IMG/VR virus record: IMGVR_UViG_3300022921_000111
Coordinates: 1-23,706 of that record
From: a virus
Length of the DNA stretch: 23,706 nt
Reading direction: 5' to 3' (one strand)
A model generated the notes under the pieces. That model did no database searches and had not been told where the DNA came from. It was given only the letters and a program-made list of their open reading frames with translations. The position numbers were made by a program, and so were the translations under genes. Below, piece after piece: positions 10,172-22,301 of this stretch. The first letter of the stretch is position 1. Each line of letters opens with the position of its first letter.

Positions 10172-10540
10172 CTATCCCTCGTCACCATAAGTCTTCAAAG
10201 TCTGCTGTGCAGCATGTACTGCACCAAGATCGTTAAGGTTAGGAATCAGGCCCTCTTTCATTCGATCAAGCTGCTCATTGTATTCTTCGTCAGTTACTCT
10301 GCTTAGCCCAGCAAAGAAAACTGGTTCTCCATCTGGCTCTCCATAGTAGGCAGCTGCCTGTTTTAGTTCAGAAAGTTTAGAAATGTCGCCTTTCATGGAA
10401 GGAATGTTTAAAATGTTTCCACTTCCGTCAGTAAACCACTTACCGTTAGCTCTTTTCCACACATAGACACCCCAGTCATACCCTTTATCAATAAAAGTGA
10501 CCTTAGACTTACCAATTTGATCTTCTCTACCAGCATTCAT
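10172..10540 (-). CDS. Small conserved phage protein before the portal, unknown function
   Basis: A 122-residue acidic protein, MNAGREDQIGKSKVTFIDKGYDWGVYVWKRANGKWFTDGSGNILNIPSMKG, with an N-terminal beta-type part rich in aromatic residues (DWGVYVWKR..GKWF) and a helical C-terminal part with DEEYNEQLDRMKEGLIPNLND. I recall similar short proteins next to portal genes in actinobacteriophages but know of no function. It ends directly at the portal start codon and so may be coupled to it. No SD precedes its ATG; TGATATAAT ends exactly 6 nt upstream, suggesting a leaderless transcript that also carries the portal. Confidence 0.75.
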   Translation of the reverse strand: MNAGREDQIGKSKVTFIDKGYDWGVYVWKRANGKWFTDGSGNILNIPSMKGDISKLSELKQAAAYYGEPDGEPVFFAGLSRVTDEEYNEQLDRMKEGLIPNLNDLGAVHAAQQTLKTYGDEG

Positions 10541-14473: not shown

Positions 14474-15379
14474 TTAGACTGCGTATCTAAAAATAACTAC
14501 CCCAGAGCCACCATCACCGCCAACAGAAGCTGCCTCTGCTCCACCGCCTCCGCCACCAGTATTTGCTAATGCTGCTGTAGGAATTGTTGAGCCAGTTTCT
14601 CCCCTACCTCCGCCGCCGTTACCACCATCAACAGCGCCACTGTCTCTATCTCCTCCACCGCCACCGCCAGCAAACCACCTTGTGCTTGGGAATATAAGCT
14701 CTCCGACACTACATGCATTGCCCCAGTCAGAGAAAGCACTAGTTCCATTTCCACCAAGACCACCTTGGTTTGTAGTTGCATCTCCGCCAGCTTCTCCAGC
14801 ACCACCGCCACCGCCACCACCGTCACCACCGAATCCAGTTCCACCAGCATTACCTTGTCCAGGAATACCGTCACCACCTGGACGACTACTAGATGAAGCA
14901 CCTCCACCACCAGAACCACCCTTAGACCCATACTCTTGTTTGTTCTGGGTGCCACCACCACCTCCACCGCCTACAGCATAGATACGGCCCTCAATATAAG
15001 ACGACTCCCCATCACCACCAAGACCACTGTTTGATGTTCCAGGAGCACCAGCACCTACACGAACAACAGTGGTTCCAGCATCAAAGAAAAAACTTCCATT
15101 GATGACACCACCAGCACCACCTCCACCACCACAGTTATCACTAGATTCACCAGTAGACCCACCACCGCCACCGCCAACCATTAAAACTTCTAAAAGACCT
15201 GGAGATTGAATAACAAGATCATGCTCACCAGTAGATGTCCAAGCTAAATATCTATAACCACCAGTTGTTACAGCTACATCAAAAGAAGAAGCTGTCTCAT
15301 CGACAACTGCAGATCCAGGAAGTGCTGGTATCCAAGCAGAACCATTCCATACCTTAGCATTACCAAAAGAATATGCCAT
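14474..15379 (-). CDS. Glycine-rich adhesin-like protein (second copy type)
   Basis: A 301-residue protein. Residues 1-65 are an attachment-type beta domain: MAYSFGNAKVWNGSAWIPALPG, then VTTGGYRYLAWTSTGEHDLVIQ and LLEVLMV. Residues about 69-295 are long glycine runs broken by Ser, Asn, Ala and Asp (VGGGGGGSTGE, CGGGGGAGG, GGNGGGGRGETG), ending GSGVVIFRYAV. Glycine-rich phage adhesins of the S16 gp38 type fold such runs into polyglycine-II helices whose loops bind receptors. That fold is inferred here. The start overlaps the stop of the 71-residue partner gene as TAATG with GAGGT upstream. The same overlap links the other Gly-rich gene to its partner, so this looks like a duplicated cassette. 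Confidence 0.75.
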   Translation of the reverse strand: MAYSFGNAKVWNGSAWIPALPGSAVVDETASSFDVAVTTGGYRYLAWTSTGEHDLVIQSPGLLEVLMVGGGGGGSTGESSDNCGGGGGAGGVINGSFFFDAGTTVVRVGAGAPGTSNSGLGGDGESSYIEGRIYAVGGGGGGGTQNKQEYGSKGGSGGGGASSSSRPGGDGIPGQGNAGGTGFGGDGGGGGGGAGEAGGDATTNQGGLGGNGTSAFSDWGNACSVGELIFPSTRWFAGGGGGGDRDSGAVDGGNGGGGRGETGSTIPTAALANTGGGGGGAEAASVGGDGGSGVVIFRYAV

Positions 15380-15594
15380 TATGGAACCTCAATCCATACA
15401 TCCCCTGCAAAAAGAGTATATCCAGAAACTGGATCAACAGAGCCAACATAAATCTTTTGACCAGCCTCACCGTCAGTATTTATAATTTTAGCAGTCTGAT
15501 CATTGATTTGCCATGCACCAATAGCATCTACCCAAACATACCCCTCGTAAATATCACCATCTGTTGGGTTAGCTGGAAAGTTTAATGCTGCCAT
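15379..15594 (-). CDS. Small fibre-associated protein with FP..P.dGD..W module
   Basis: A 71-residue protein. Its N-terminus MAALNFPANPTDGDIYEGYVWVDAIGAWQI matches the first 30 residues of the proteins starting at 19373 and 22805 (FP.sPs.gD.....W.w....W). Its C-terminus, VDPVSGYTLFAGDVWIEVP, resembles the P...GD.W module seen in the collagen-like proteins. It has SD AGAAGGAG and a TATAAT 20 nt before the ATG. Its stop overlaps the start of the Gly-rich gene (TAATG), so the two products are probably made together. It may be an adaptor joining the Gly-rich protein to the virion; this is inferred from coupling only. Confidence 0.7.
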   Translation of the reverse strand: MAALNFPANPTDGDIYEGYVWVDAIGAWQINDQTAKIINTDGEAGQKIYVGSVDPVSGYTLFAGDVWIEVP

Positions 15595-15614
15595 CTGTAT
15601 ACTCCTTCTAAAAT

Positions 15615-15620
15615 ATTATA
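15615..15620 (-). promoter_or_regulatory. -10 candidate (TATAAT) before the small fibre / Gly-rich pair
   Basis: TATAAT on the minus strand within TGGTATATAAT, 20 nt before the ATG at 15594. The leader contains AGAAGGAGT. The layout TATAAT, about 8 nt, GAAGGAGT, start is the same as at 19393-19398 before the other cassette. Confidence 0.45.
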
Positions 15621-15625
15621 TACCA

Positions 15626-16216
15626 TTAAGGAATGTTTACCTGTACCCATTGTGAGGAATCAGTGTCTTGATAATAAACATAGAGATAGCCAGTAGCAGA
15701 GTCTAACCAAAGATCTCCGTTATTTGCTGTTGCTGGAGATGATTCTGATATAAATGTTTGTCCACCAGAAGGTCCTTGAATACCCTGTGCACCTGTTGGT
15801 CCTGTCGGACCTGTCGGTCCACTATTTCCAGCCTCTACCCATTGGCCACCATCAACATCTTCATACCAAATAGCTGTTACTGCTGTTTCAGAATTAAACC
15901 ATCCATCACCATCATTAGGTGCTGTAGGTGCTGTAGCAGAAACAAAGAATGCTGCTGCACCAGTGGGACCAGTTGGCCCTGTCGGACCCGTTGGGCCAGT
16001 TGGGCCTTGCTCGCCCTGTGGGCCTACTTCACCCTGTTCTCCGATCTCTCCTTGAGGACCACTAATTGATTCTAATTCATTCCACGCAGCTATACCATCA
16101 CCGATACGAATATTAAAATTGGTTGTGTCATAACCAATTTCACCAAGAGCAAGAACAGGGTTTGCAGCAGCCCACTCTGCTGCAGTTCCTCTACGCTGCT
16201 GAATTCTAGTTGCCAA
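15626..16216 (-). CDS. Collagen-like tail fibre protein, TTG start
   Basis: A 196-residue protein. Residues 1-50, ATRIQQRRGTAAEWAAANPV then LALGEIGYDTT and IRIGDGIAAWNEL, match the short N-terminal repeat found in many phage fibres (like the Mtd N-terminal domain). Residues 53-86 are collagen-like G-X-Y ending in [16 protein letters not shown]. Residues 87-130 and 152-196 are two copies of a module reading (F)(V/I)S...P.....GD.W..S.T......Y.D.D..QWV. A second collagen stretch lies at 133-151. Trimeric fibre is expected from the G-X-Y tracts. The start is TTG with ATGGAGGAATATA upstream; no in-frame ATG exists near it. It directly follows the glycosyltransferase gene. Confidence 0.82.
   Translation of the reverse strand: MATRIQQRRGTAAEWAAANPVLALGEIGYDTTNFNIRIGDGIAAWNELESISGPQGEIGEQGEVGPQGEQGPTGPTGPTGPTGPTGAAAFFVSATAPTAPNDGDGWFNSETAVTAIWYEDVDGGQWVEAGNSGPTGPTGPTGAQGIQGPSGGQTFISESSPATANNGDLWLDSATGYLYVYYQDTDSSQWVQVNIP
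15791..15830 (-). repeat. Second GPT codon repeat of the 196-residue fibre
   Basis: Nine-base units encoding [10 protein letters not shown] at residues 133-142, followed by GAQGIQG. The units are close in sequence to those of the other collagen-like genes in the window. Confidence 0.65.
15959..16060 (-). repeat. Collagen-like G-X-Y codon repeat (main tract of the 196-residue fibre)
   Basis: Eleven consecutive G-X-Y triplets, the last five being GPT. At DNA level the GPT part consists of near-identical 9-bp units with varied third positions (GGC/GGG/GGA, CCC/CCG). Such units can expand or contract by slippage or recombine with similar tracts at 15791-15830, 22501-22532 and 22645-22694. Confidence 0.75.
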
Positions 16217-16243
16217 TATATTCCTCCATAAAAGACTAATCTA

Positions 16244-16252
16244 ATTATAACA
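16244..16252 (-). promoter_or_regulatory. Extended -10 (TGTTATAAT) before the collagen-like fibre gene
   Basis: Perfect TATAAT with TGT extension, 27 nt before the TTG start at 16216, just after the stop of the glycosyltransferase gene. The same nonamer lies before the short tail chaperone (1483-1491). The leader carries ATGGAGGAA as SD. Confidence 0.5.
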
Positions 16253-16254
16253 TG

Positions 16255-17340
16255 CTATTTGCTTACAACTTTGCTAGAATAATGAGCTAGATTGGACTTT
16301 AGTCTTTCGCTAGATGGATTAAGTTTAGATGCTTCTATTCCATATTCTAATGCTTTATCGTATTCCCCGACGGCATAAGCAGAAATAGCAGCCAAATCAT
16401 ATGGAAGGTCTCCCCAAGCATACTCTTCACACAAATATTCTAATGGTCGCTCTTTAATAGCTAATGCCATTTCAGAATACTTTAGGCATTCTTCCCATTT
16501 TTGATTTTCATAATAGAATCTTGCTAAATCAACTATTGGCTCTCTTCTATCTGGTGTCTCCTCAACTGCTTTTATGAACCAGTCTTCCTTTTCCTGCCCA
16601 GTGCTACATTTAGCAATGTATCTCATAGACGCTGAACGCTCTGGCTTCCAAGTAGATCGGGGTAACGAAAGGTGCCTAATAAATTCTTTCTTTGCTTCTT
16701 CAAATTGAAAATGAAAGAAAAGCTCTCTAGCATAATAGTGTGCGTTACGATCATCTAGTGGATCTTCTTCTACTGCCAACCTGAGTAGTGGCATATACTG
16801 TCCACGTGACTTTGTGCTATCTGGGTGATGATGTATCTCTAAATCTACCCAGCTCTGCTTCTCTTCAATTCTGTCTGTAGTTAATACTTCATGAACTGGA
16901 TGTTTCCAACGGTATCCAAATCTAGAATGAATCTTATCTCCGCCATATTGTAGTCCAGGGATAGTTTCTTTTTCATCTTTCCAAGACCATGTATATTGAT
17001 ACCGTGGGCGAGTAGCACCTTCTTTATGAGCTTTTTCTAAATGTTTTCTCCAGCCAGGAAGTAGCACTTCATCCATATCCAAAGCAATGCAGTAGTCAAT
17101 ATCTTCTGGCAACAATGCTAGAGCAGCATTACGAGCATTATCAAAACGCCAAGGTCTGACAAGAATAGAAGCAACCTCTATACCATACTTAGCAGCGGTA
17201 AGCAATGCATCATCTGTGCTGCCAGTATCAGCAATTAAAAGATAGTCAGCATCTTTAGCTGACTCATACCAACGTTCAATAAACTGTTCTTCGTTTAGCG
17301 CAATGGTATATACTGCGACTTTCATACCCTTTTTAGTCAT
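16255..17340 (-). CDS. GT2-type glycosyltransferase with helical-repeat (TPR-like) C-terminus
   Basis: A 361-residue cytoplasmic-type protein with no signal or membrane segment. Residues 6-200 form a GT-A domain: VAVYTIALNEEQFIERW, then DTGSTD (38-43), RFDNARNAAL (65-74) and DMDE (88-91), the D.D metal and nucleotide-sugar motif. HPVHE follows in the acceptor side. Residues about 210-355 consist of helix pairs like TPRs (ARFYYENQKWEECLKYSEMAL, AYAVGEYDKALEYGIEASKLNP). The build resembles SunS-like peptide glycosyltransferases and similar phage enzymes. The context, between fibre genes and directly upstream of a GPT-repeat collagen-like gene, suggests that it glycosylates a virion protein. The sugar and target are unknown. 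The start is ATG at 17340; a second ATG lies 5 codons in. Confidence 0.85.
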   Translation of the reverse strand: MTKKGMKVAVYTIALNEEQFIERWYESAKDADYLLIADTGSTDDALLTAAKYGIEVASILVRPWRFDNARNAALALLPEDIDYCIALDMDEVLLPGWRKHLEKAHKEGATRPRYQYTWSWKDEKETIPGLQYGGDKIHSRFGYRWKHPVHEVLTTDRIEEKQSWVDLEIHHHPDSTKSRGQYMPLLRLAVEEDPLDDRNAHYYARELFFHFQFEEAKKEFIRHLSLPRSTWKPERSASMRYIAKCSTGQEKEDWFIKAVEETPDRREPIVDLARFYYENQKWEECLKYSEMALAIKERPLEYLCEEYAWGDLPYDLAAISAYAVGEYDKALEYGIEASKLNPSSERLKSNLAHYSSKVVSK

Positions 17341-17344
17341 AGAG

Positions 17345-17833
17345 CTAGTCTATCACAACAAGAGTCCAGGATTGCGTTTCTTCTATCCACTGATACATAT
17401 TTCCATCATCTGGTGGTGGGAATGGTGGCTGCCATTCTGCAGCATCATCATTCCATGTCCAGGACAGATATGGTTGTTCTGGTATTGGAACCTCTAGCGG
17501 CAAAATTTCTGAAAATGATTCTCCAGCATTTTCTGCCCAAGCATCTATATAATATGTTCTATTAGGTCTGAAACCAAATACTCTTGATATTTCTAAATAA
17601 GTTTGATCTGTAGCAATATATTGCATAGTATTCTTTGGATATTCCTCGCCACCGAAAGGTATACCGTCAAAAGAAATAGCATACCCAAACTTTAGATTAT
17701 CGAACTCAACTTCTTCAGAACCATTTTGTTTAAAATTAAAATAAAAGTCAACATAGTCATCATATGGGTCAACCATAGACGTATCTATGTTCCAATCTTT
17801 ATTGATAGTATCAAAATTTATTTTTACTTTCAT
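17345..17833 (-). CDS. Virion-associated protein with Trp-rich C-terminal motif
   Basis: A 162-residue acidic protein. Residues 1-115 are beta-type (MKVKINFDTINKDWNID, VDFYFNFKQNG, YYIDAWAENAGESFSE) and resemble a single Ig/FN-like domain. The C-terminus, PYLSWTWNDDAAEWQPPFPPPDDGNMYQWIEETQSW, carries the W.WN....W.pP.p.PdDG..Y.W.E....W motif that I recall from small virion proteins of aquatic cyanophages and other marine phages. Its function there is not known to me. It starts 2 bases after the previous stop without a good SD, and ends 4 bases before the glycosyltransferase start, so it is co-expressed with both the Gly-rich adhesin and the enzyme. Confidence 0.65.
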   Translation of the reverse strand: MKVKINFDTINKDWNIDTSMVDPYDDYVDFYFNFKQNGSEEVEFDNLKFGYAISFDGIPFGGEEYPKNTMQYIATDQTYLEISRVFGFRPNRTYYIDAWAENAGESFSEILPLEVPIPEQPYLSWTWNDDAAEWQPPFPPPDDGNMYQWIEETQSWTLVVID

Positions 17834-17835
17834 AT

Positions 17836-18792
17836 CTACCCGTAACTTAGTATATATCTAATTGAAACAATTCCAGAACCGCCAGCTGCACCACCTTTGG
17901 AACCTGCCGCTGTTGAGAAGTATGCTGATCCACCAGCACCGCCACCACGACCATCTGTTCCAGCAATACCGCTGTTTATTCCAGTCCTACCAGCTGCGCC
18001 ACCACCAAAGCCACCAGCACCAGCAGTCAGTCTACCAGACCCACCGCCACCGCCACCATACCTTACGTTTGTTCCAGTTGGTATGCGGTTAAACTGTCCA
18101 ACTCCGCCATCACCACCATCATTAGTTGCAGCATCAGCACCAGCAGCAGCAGCACCACCCCCACCTCCAGCACCACCCTGAGACGTTCCATATGGTCCAG
18201 AAGCACCACCAGCATACCCCTGCCCAGCAGTTCCATCTCCACCAGCAGTTCCAGTACTACCATTACCAGTTCCACCACCAGAACCACCAGAGTTTGCAGG
18301 CTTAGTAAAGTATGATGTTCTACCACCACCGCCTTGGCTGGTTTTTCCATTAAATGATGAGTTTTCTCCATTAGAACCACCACCAGTTCCACCACTACCA
18401 CCAGCACCACCATCACCCACTGTTACGGTATAGCTTCCAGATGTCAAAAACATTCTTGACTCAGCAGAAGCACCACCACCAGAACCATGGTCGCCAGAAT
18501 CTGTTCCCTGTGCATTTGACCTAAATCCTCCTCCACCACCACCACCAGCTAAAGTAACGTCATCTTTAGAAGCACCGCTACCACCACCACCAGCGACAAT
18601 AAGATACTGAACCTCTCCAGTAGTTCCAGGATCAGTAACGGTAAAAGTTGAGCTTCCAACTGTAGTAAAAGTATGCACTTTCCAAGTTATTCCAGTAGAG
18701 CCAGTGTAAGTGCTTACTGTTCCACCAGTGGCCTGTATTGGCTCCCAAACCAAACCTAGTGATGCAGGGCTTCTAAATCCATGAAGAGGCAT
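17836..18792 (-). CDS. Glycine-rich adhesin-like protein (first copy type)
   Basis: A 318-residue protein. Residues 1-70 are an attachment-type beta domain: PLHGFRSPASLGLVWEPIQ, then ITWKVHTFTTVGSSTFTVTDPG and EVQYLIVAGGGG. Residues about 68-310 are glycine runs with Ser, Ala, Asn, Asp and aromatic breaks (LAGGGGGGGFRS, GSGGGTGNGSTGTAGG, RYGGGGGGSGRL), ending GSGIVSIRYILSYG. The C-terminal GGSG(I/V)V.(I/F)RY is shared with the 301-residue Gly-rich protein, while the N-termini differ apart from general type. Polyglycine-II packing as in S16 gp38 adhesins is the likely fold, by inference. The start overlaps the stop of the 193-residue gene as TAATG with GAGGAG upstream. Confidence 0.75.
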   Translation of the reverse strand: MPLHGFRSPASLGLVWEPIQATGGTVSTYTGSTGITWKVHTFTTVGSSTFTVTDPGTTGEVQYLIVAGGGGSGASKDDVTLAGGGGGGGFRSNAQGTDSGDHGSGGGASAESRMFLTSGSYTVTVGDGGAGGSGGTGGGSNGENSSFNGKTSQGGGGRTSYFTKPANSGGSGGGTGNGSTGTAGGDGTAGQGYAGGASGPYGTSQGGAGGGGGAAAAGADAATNDGGDGGVGQFNRIPTGTNVRYGGGGGGSGRLTAGAGGFGGGAAGRTGINSGIAGTDGRGGGAGGSAYFSTAAGSKGGAAGGSGIVSIRYILSYG

Positions 18793-19373
18793 TATAGCTC
18801 CTCAATGTATGCTGCTACGCATCCCGTATCTGATGTGGTGAATGATGTAACTGTTAAGATACCAGTTTTCCCAGCGGTAATTGATGTCGGGATAATGCCA
18901 ACAAATGTCCAGTTTGCTGGGTATGAGAATGTTCTGTCTGATGCACCAGTGTTAACAATTCTTAGTGTTTTGATTCCACCAGCAATATAGTTACTTCCAG
19001 TGATAGTTAAGGCTTCATCAATTGAAACGGTATACAAGCCAGTGTCTGAGGAGAAGTCAAGGTTTAAAGTTCCTGGGCTGCTAGATGTTGTTACATCAAT
19101 ATCATAGTTTGGTGCAGAAATAATACTAGAGCTATCAAGGCTTGTTAGATCATTTATGTCATAAGAGTAGGTAATTGTTTCATTTACCCAATTTCCACTG
19201 GCATTATCATATACTAGAAAATCTCCATCAGATGGGGTTGGAACGGTAACATCGGAAAGATCGTTGAACTCTGTAATGGTTAGCTGTCGTCTCCAAATGC
19301 CAGCTGTTGCATCCCAATAAAAATTATCATATGTGTCACCATCGCTAGGTGAACTGGGAAAGTCTAATGCCAT
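18792..19373 (-). CDS. Fibre-associated protein with FP..P..GD and LSDV modules
   Basis: A 193-residue protein. Residues 1-32 (MALDFPSSPSDGDTYDNFYWDATAGIWR) are the FP.SPS.GD..W.W module shared with proteins at 15594 and 22805. Residues about 36-68 (FNDLSDVTVPTPSDGDFLVYDNASGNWVNE) are an LSDV module shared with the two collagen-like proteins at the right end. The rest is a beta domain (TLNLDFSSDTGLYTVSIDEALTITGSNYIAGGIKTLRIVNTGA) typical of phage fibre tips. The SD GAAGGAG and a TATAAT box 19 nt before the ATG mirror those of the 71-residue gene. It overlaps the Gly-rich gene that follows, so the pair is probably a functional unit. Confidence 0.72.
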   Translation of the reverse strand: MALDFPSSPSDGDTYDNFYWDATAGIWRRQLTITEFNDLSDVTVPTPSDGDFLVYDNASGNWVNETITYSYDINDLTSLDSSSIISAPNYDIDVTTSSSPGTLNLDFSSDTGLYTVSIDEALTITGSNYIAGGIKTLRIVNTGASDRTFSYPANWTFVGIIPTSITAGKTGILTVTSFTTSDTGCVAAYIEEL

Positions 19374-19392: not shown

Positions 19393-19398
19393 ATTATA
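19393..19398 (-). promoter_or_regulatory. -10 candidate (TATAAT) before the 193-residue / Gly-rich pair
   Basis: TATAAT on the minus strand, 19 nt before the ATG at 19373, with TGAAGGAGT as SD in the leader. The layout parallels the box at 15615-15620 before the second cassette. Confidence 0.45.
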
Positions 19399-19411: not shown

Positions 19412-19849
19412 TTATGATTCTGGATATAGCTCTGGCCAAACAATATTATATGGGTCTGTTTGCGACTGAGGTATATCTCTAAGTTCCTGGCGGTATATGA
19501 CATATTCTTCTGGAACAGGAACTCCAGCCTCATATGACTTAAGAACAATGAAATCTGTTTCTGATAGAAGCCTATCTCTTTGATTTCTGATTAGCTCCCA
19601 CTGCCCCTCAATCTCAAAATCAATTTCTTCTTGAGTTTTATCTCTAACATTCCAAGACATAGACTCCTGAACCCAGGTCACTACCTTGGTATTATCTACT
19701 GATGGCTTTTGATCTACCTCAAAATATCCAGCAGACTGCAAATCTTCTGCTGTAAAGGTTGTCTTATCAGTTTTTGTAGTGCCATCTGGCATACGTAGCC
19801 TGGAAGGCATAATCGATGGGTATGCTCCGTTATAAGAATAAAGTTTCAT
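19412..19849 (-). CDS. Tail fibre assembly-like protein
   Basis: A 145-residue protein, MKLYSYNGAYPSIMPSRLRMPDG. The C-terminal half, WELIRNQRDRLLSETDFIVLKSYEAG then EEYVIYRQELRDIP and NIVWPELP-like YP, matches the R..RD.LL..TD.....YR..LRDIP....WP pattern of phage tail fibre assembly and related chaperone-like proteins. Those proteins help trimeric fibres fold and may stay out of the virion. The N-terminal part contains a WVQESMSWNV segment that resembles the Trp motif of the 162-residue protein. It lies 6 bases after the previous stop; no strong SD is seen. The neighbouring fibre genes on both sides fit the role. Confidence 0.72.
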   Translation of the reverse strand: MKLYSYNGAYPSIMPSRLRMPDGTTKTDKTTFTAEDLQSAGYFEVDQKPSVDNTKVVTWVQESMSWNVRDKTQEEIDFEIEGQWELIRNQRDRLLSETDFIVLKSYEAGVPVPEEYVIYRQELRDIPQSQTDPYNIVWPELYPES

Positions 19850-21941: not shown

Positions 21942-22301
21942 TTAGCTAATTTCTTCGTAAGAGCATACCGCCTGTAAATCCCCATCAGCAGAAGCTAGAC
22001 ATCTAAGAGAATCACCTTCTTCAAGATAAATAGATGTATCTTTAGATACTACAACTAGTGAAGCATCTGCTGGCACAGTAATAGTATTTGCAAGCTTATA
22101 AGAAGTTGAGCTTCTAAAAAAATCAACGGTAACGTCTGCTGAGTTAGTTCCATCTATGTTAGAAATTACAAGAGAATTAATTTTAATAATTTTACCACTA
22201 GCTGCGGTATTTTCAACAATGGCAGCAGCACTAGTGGTAACAGACTGAACTGCTGTCTTACCATAAATACTTACTACGTTAACGATGTTAGGATTTGCCA
22301 T
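21942..22301 (-). CDS. Small virion protein of a type recalled from marine and cyanophages
   Basis: A 119-residue beta-rich protein: MANPNIVNVVSIYGKTAVQSVTTSAAAIVENTAASGKIIKINSLVISNIDGTNSADVTVDFF, then KLANTITVPADASLVVVSKDTSIYLEEGDSLRCLASADGDLQAVCSYEEIS. I recall close relatives in aquatic phages, where they are annotated as virion structural proteins; I know of no specific function. The MAN.NIVNV.SI.GKTA opening and SYEEIS end are the signatures. No SD precedes the ATG. TGGTACAAT ends 6 nt upstream, so the transcript is probably leaderless and may include the coupled 433- and 259-residue genes. Confidence 0.78.
   Translation of the reverse strand: MANPNIVNVVSIYGKTAVQSVTTSAAAIVENTAASGKIIKINSLVISNIDGTNSADVTVDFFRSSTSYKLANTITVPADASLVVVSKDTSIYLEEGDSLRCLASADGDLQAVCSYEEIS

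Follow-up and report, generated by a model that had tools for sequence, protein, structure and literature searches.

Two places in a 23,706-base stretch of viral DNA (hereafter the window) carry the same arrangement, a small protein with an FP N-terminus encoded directly ahead of a glycine-rich (Gly-rich) protein, which raises the questions of whether the two units are copies of each other, whether their partners belong together, and what the phage would use them for. The window holds minus-strand genes of an uncultured aquatic tailed phage, among them those for portal, protease, capsid, tail and tape measure, in this order. The same order is found in Karimac, one of the Streptomyces phages whose portals are about 45-47% identical to that of the window; the capsid and tail genes of the window are named by position. 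From the portal kinship, an actinobacterial host may be guessed. Both units sit upstream of the portal gene, and all four reading frames that the first-pass annotation had paired (193 with 318 aa, 71 with 301 aa, TAATG overlaps at 18792 and 15379) were confirmed (Table 1).

Table 1. The two units and associated features of the window
Feature	Position	Strand	Description
FP193, 193 aa	18792..19373	-	First gene of unit 1; FP module (residues 1-30), DLSDV/W linker module, C-terminal beta-rich domain
GlyA318, 318 aa	17836..18792	-	Gly_rich_2; 1-nt overlap (TAATG) with FP193; phrog_2295, E=1.4e-39
g162	17345..17833	-	Third in unit 1; putative accessory or assembly role
FP71, 71 aa	15379..15594	-	First gene of unit 2; FP module and IYVG..DP....AGD.WIE module
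GlyB301, 301 aa	14474..15379	-	Gly_rich_2; NAKVWNGSAW N-terminus; 1-nt overlap (TAATG) with FP71
TATAAT box	19393..19398	-	Ends 19 nt before FP193 start; GAAGGAGT Shine-Dalgarno between
TATAAT box	15615..15620	-	Ends 20 nt before FP71 start; GAAGGAGT Shine-Dalgarno between
APC145, tail assembly chaperone / tail fibre assembly family	19412..19849	-	PF16778, E=3.3e-15; phrog_4912, E=4.3e-21; adjoins unit 1
Third FP-module protein, 161 aa	22320..22805	-	Collagen-like repeats; without Gly-rich partner

The N-terminus proposed to be common to FP193 and FP71 was recovered by BLASTP (E=2e-7) and by a Smith-Waterman score of 83, against 29.6 +/- 5.2, with a maximum of 61, in 1000 shuffles. A similarity search with FP193 returned a chance-level match only. 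Among the loci of relatives, here designated by L numbers, L111 holds a 56% identical relative of the C-terminal part of FP193, and counterparts of FP71 occur in L033, L041, L052 and L059. A third FP N-terminus, of which the first-pass annotation was unaware, lies elsewhere in the window (Table 1), and the g162 C-terminus, FPPPDDGNMYQWIEETQSW, resembles the module by eye. Because FP-like hairpins are thus found in a protein with no Gly-rich partner and, apparently, at the end of g162, the FP module is not specific to tips.

The Gly-rich partners both exceed the curated cut-off (24.3 bits) for membership in Pfam Gly_rich_2 (PF21722), GlyA318 with 37.3 bits (E=3.9e-9) and GlyB301 with 82.5 bits (E=5.7e-23). 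BLASTP between them gave nothing and was replaced by a shuffle test, in which they proved homologous beyond composition, with a score of 380, whereas 300 sequences shuffled inside stretches of 10 aa reached 243 +/- 14.5 and at most 280. No match to either was obtained by tblastn against phage records, possibly owing to low-complexity filtering, and nothing was found by phmmer with GlyB301 or by PDB profile searches with A5 and A1.

A recent duplication as the origin of the two units is doubtful: the Gly-rich proteins are of different subtypes, the FP tails differ as well, and similarity at the DNA level is confined to glycine-rich coding sequence and a short FP stretch. The pairs have nothing but an FP module and a Gly-rich family in common, the N-termini of the Gly-rich proteins being different. 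That an ancestral gene pair was truly duplicated in this phage lineage and then diverged would fit the shared gene order, the 1-nt overlaps, the homologous FP modules and Gly-rich domains and the similar leaders, and a tree forced to join GlyA318 and GlyB301 is not rejected (AU p=0.55). We nevertheless regard it as unlikely, given the dissimilar N-termini and FP tails, the free trees, built from 57 and 49 Gly-rich sequences, which leave GlyA318 and GlyB301 unjoined (with weak support), the pairs of L033, L041, L052 and L059 that match FP71-GlyB301 in both modules, and the close relatives L033, L035 and L036, which carry the second unit alone. The two units are here taken as members of an old, exchangeable family.

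As described earlier, a TATAAT box precedes each FP start with GAAGGAGT in between, and the distances to the ATG held; the gap from box to GAAGGAGT, given as about 8 nt, is in fact 6-7 nt. The leader is no evidence for the pair, since TANAAT boxes occur genome-wide, in 13 of the 15 gene gaps of at least 14 nt. Half of the minus-strand TATAATs in the window (9 of 18) touch its 579 intergenic bases. TAATG overlaps are similarly common, at 4 of 27 junctions here and 106 of 515 in relatives. Translational coupling of each pair can only be conjectured from the overlap and from Shine-Dalgarno-like sequences inside the upstream gene.

Extended -10 boxes were also observed at other gene starts, for example those of the third FP gene and of 21942-22301 and 10172-10540 in the window, and in loci L030-L109. 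A survey of 234 distinct leaders of relatives, with start codons assigned by the longest ORF, contained 149 TANAAT hexamers, 112 of them preceded by TGn, with a position peak of 39 cases at exactly 6 nt ahead of the start codon. Boxes up to 9 nt from the start mostly come without a Shine-Dalgarno sequence (63 vs 12), and those farther away mostly with one (69 vs 5). By this pattern, structural genes seem to use leaderless as well as leadered promoters.

Whether the partners belong together was evaluated in loci for which the portal was the bait, a sampling on which FP and Gly-rich genes had no influence; near-identical records of the window were left out of the pair count. An FP gene lies directly upstream of 5 of 21 distinct Gly-rich genes, as compared with 7 of 494 other genes (p=4.5e-5, to be read only as a guide, the loci being related), which agrees with the expectation that the pair recurs in other genomes. 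Four of these five pairs show the 1-nt overlap, and the other 16 Gly-rich genes have no FP gene directly before them. An initial enrichment count (14 of 58 vs 59 of 950) was discarded for bias, many of its loci having come from queries with FP and Gly-rich sequences, and the portal-bait count replaced it. Copy number varies too, from 0 to 4 Gly-rich genes per locus in the 25 loci of the portal set that extend 9 kb or more upstream.

In several relatives the two parts form a single protein, once each in L018 and L121 and twice each in L050, L122, L125 and L126; the tandem fusion genes overlap by 1 nt in L050, L122 and L125, and lie 5 nt apart in L126. Portal-bait enrichment and natural fusions together indicate that FP and Gly-rich parts belong together, split or fused, and, since those relatives encode both as one protein, the units of the window look like the split form. 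Two-gene units of another type were also seen, in which a 109-110 aa protein (MATxYKVLGQ..) is encoded directly upstream of another Gly-rich subtype, mostly starting MAVTSMANSS.. (L005, L052, L054, L059, L122, L161).

Gene content surrounding both units differs between relatives. Locus L005 keeps the order of the window, with APC gene, FP gene, Gly-rich gene, g162-type gene, glycosyltransferase and Mtd_N gene, a 109-aa gene separating the FP from the Gly-rich gene; at the place of FP71 and GlyB301 it has a 359-aa FP protein with a different C-terminus. In L037, whose portal is 86% identical, neither unit was found within the stretch covered. The family 2 glycosyltransferase among the adhesin genes (window 16255-17340; PF00535, weak TPR similarity) is kept in L005, L033 and L037 while the adjoining units change.

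The third gene of unit 1 has a recurrent position of its own. The C-terminus of g162 (SWTWNDDAAEWQPPFPPPDDGNMYQWIEETQSW) is common to a small protein encoded after Gly-rich genes in relatives, and this family follows 10 of 67 Gly-rich genes versus 3 of 981 other genes (4 of 27 versus 3 of 513 with the portal bait alone, p=1.6e-4). Its members in relatives begin MAHYA.LDENN.V; the N-terminus of g162 is another domain, weakly similar to a pilus backbone protein (E=0.007).

The reading of the Gly-rich proteins as tips gained support from structure prediction, GlyB301 being the one of the two that was modelled, and predicted to fold like known fibre tips. Its AlphaFold2 model (pLDDT 86.5, pTM 0.85, first residues of low confidence) and that of a natural FP-Gly fusion, L125:3822-4751 (pLDDT 89, pTM 0.87), both feature a beta core and long glycine-rich stretches without regular secondary structure; the fusion model begins with a beta hairpin. 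Foldseek against the PDB listed first, for both models, the mycobacteriophage Bxb1 tail tip (9d93) and the Pam3 fibre (7ypx/7yfw), followed by Gly-rich domains of ALK/LTK; a resemblance of Pam3 gp24 to ALK was noted by its own authors (PMC9608196). With TM-scores to the solved fibres of 0.30-0.49, all below 0.5, the claim is one of fold type and not of close similarity. A comparison with the near-identical records L030 and L031 did not bring out hypervariable loops, their differences from the window (14 and 9) being too few for that.

Pam3 gp24 (7YPX, 7YFW) likewise combines a beta core with a glycine-lattice domain bearing GGGG motifs, and has an assembly-family gene nearby. It matches GlyB301 with E-values of 1.8e-5 and 5.8e-4 (probability 1.00, TM 0.41-0.48) and the L125 fusion model with 3.9e-6 and 3.0e-4, and the GlyB301 model contains a gp24-type beta core and glycine-strand lattice, as a fold-type resemblance. 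In Pam3, gp24 was detected in virions by mass spectrometry; its N-terminus docks to the baseplate, and its TNF-like and Gly-rich domains are proposed for receptor recognition (PMC9608196). Unlike gp24, whose helical docking domain is part of the same chain, the units described here have a beta-hairpin FP module on a separate protein, and the GlyB301 model shows no long N-terminal helix of the docking type. The Bxb1 tail-tip chains Qa and Qb (9D93) share the Gly-rich fold (E=1e-5 and 2e-5), with TM-scores of 0.30-0.42.

Two further systems are comparable. The hafunaviruses of haloarchaea have, in a hypervariable region, a Gly-rich adhesin gene that lies beside a small-protein gene and tracks host range (PMC8651126), and the Gly-rich protein Q8V6M2 of Halorubrum phage HF2 matches the L125 fusion model (E=3e-15). 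Those are haloarchaeal tailed viruses, however, and their small gene comes after the adhesin gene, whereas here it comes before. In Salmonella phage S16, the polyglycine tip gp38 (6F45) is also a separate protein, capping a fibre, but has a beta-helix core, ten glycine motifs and Trp-tipped attachment helices (PMC6851490); 6F45 was absent among the 50 PDB matches listed for each model, and neither model has an N-terminal helical bundle as in gp38.

Taken as a whole, we consider it reasonably probable that the two units are two receptor-binding adhesins, each made of an interchangeable Gly-rich distal tip and an FP attachment part, and that the variable region ahead of the portal which holds them serves host recognition. 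The tip would present a beta (TNF-like) core bearing a lattice of glycine-rich strands with variable end loops, and presumably binds receptors, by analogy to Pam3 gp24 and to the haloarchaeal adhesins that track host range. The FP protein would be the N-terminal attachment part, made as a polypeptide of its own and joined to the tip in relatives; this is suggested by the position of FP at the N-terminal end of the fusions and by the analogy to gp24. The split partners would touch, and given the 1-nt overlaps both could be supplied together from one mRNA.

The FP proteins might instead be assembly helpers of the tip, absent from the virion, like Pam3 gp25, the chaperone of gp24, which was cloned as one segment with the fibre and went undetected in virions (PMC9608196). 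The small FP genes do directly adjoin the tip gene, yet several relatives have FP joined to the tip at its N-terminus, unexpected for a released chaperone, and APC145 and the g162 family are better chaperone candidates, which makes the helper role improbable.

The location of the genes bears on the tail-tip assignment itself, as they are neighbours of the portal and do not follow the tape measure gene, so that a tail location is only presumed. The region is adjoined by collagen-like genes and by a 1294-aa gene whose family matches are weak or absent, and the distant relative Karimac has genes of unknown function at the same place; head or neck fibres or decorations could be encoded here. We find this rather unlikely, the best structural matches being tail-tip and tail-fibre proteins and a tail-fibre-assembly family gene adjoining unit 1.

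If the units are adhesins, as we favour, their different tips may allow the virion to offer two different recognition surfaces, both tips presumably being present in one particle. As a tentative and rather doubtful generalization, such plug-in adhesins could rely on a common FP module serving interchangeable tips, either fused or as a separate, co-translated socket, with units gained and lost and several tips per virion.

The adhesin kind is already known; the arrangement is new. Gly-rich tips set host range in some phages, and the two-gene form, the fusions and the copy number of 0-4 per locus would help to find attachment modules and tips by sequence in aquatic phages that have not been cultured, and would allow testing whether one virion bears several tips.
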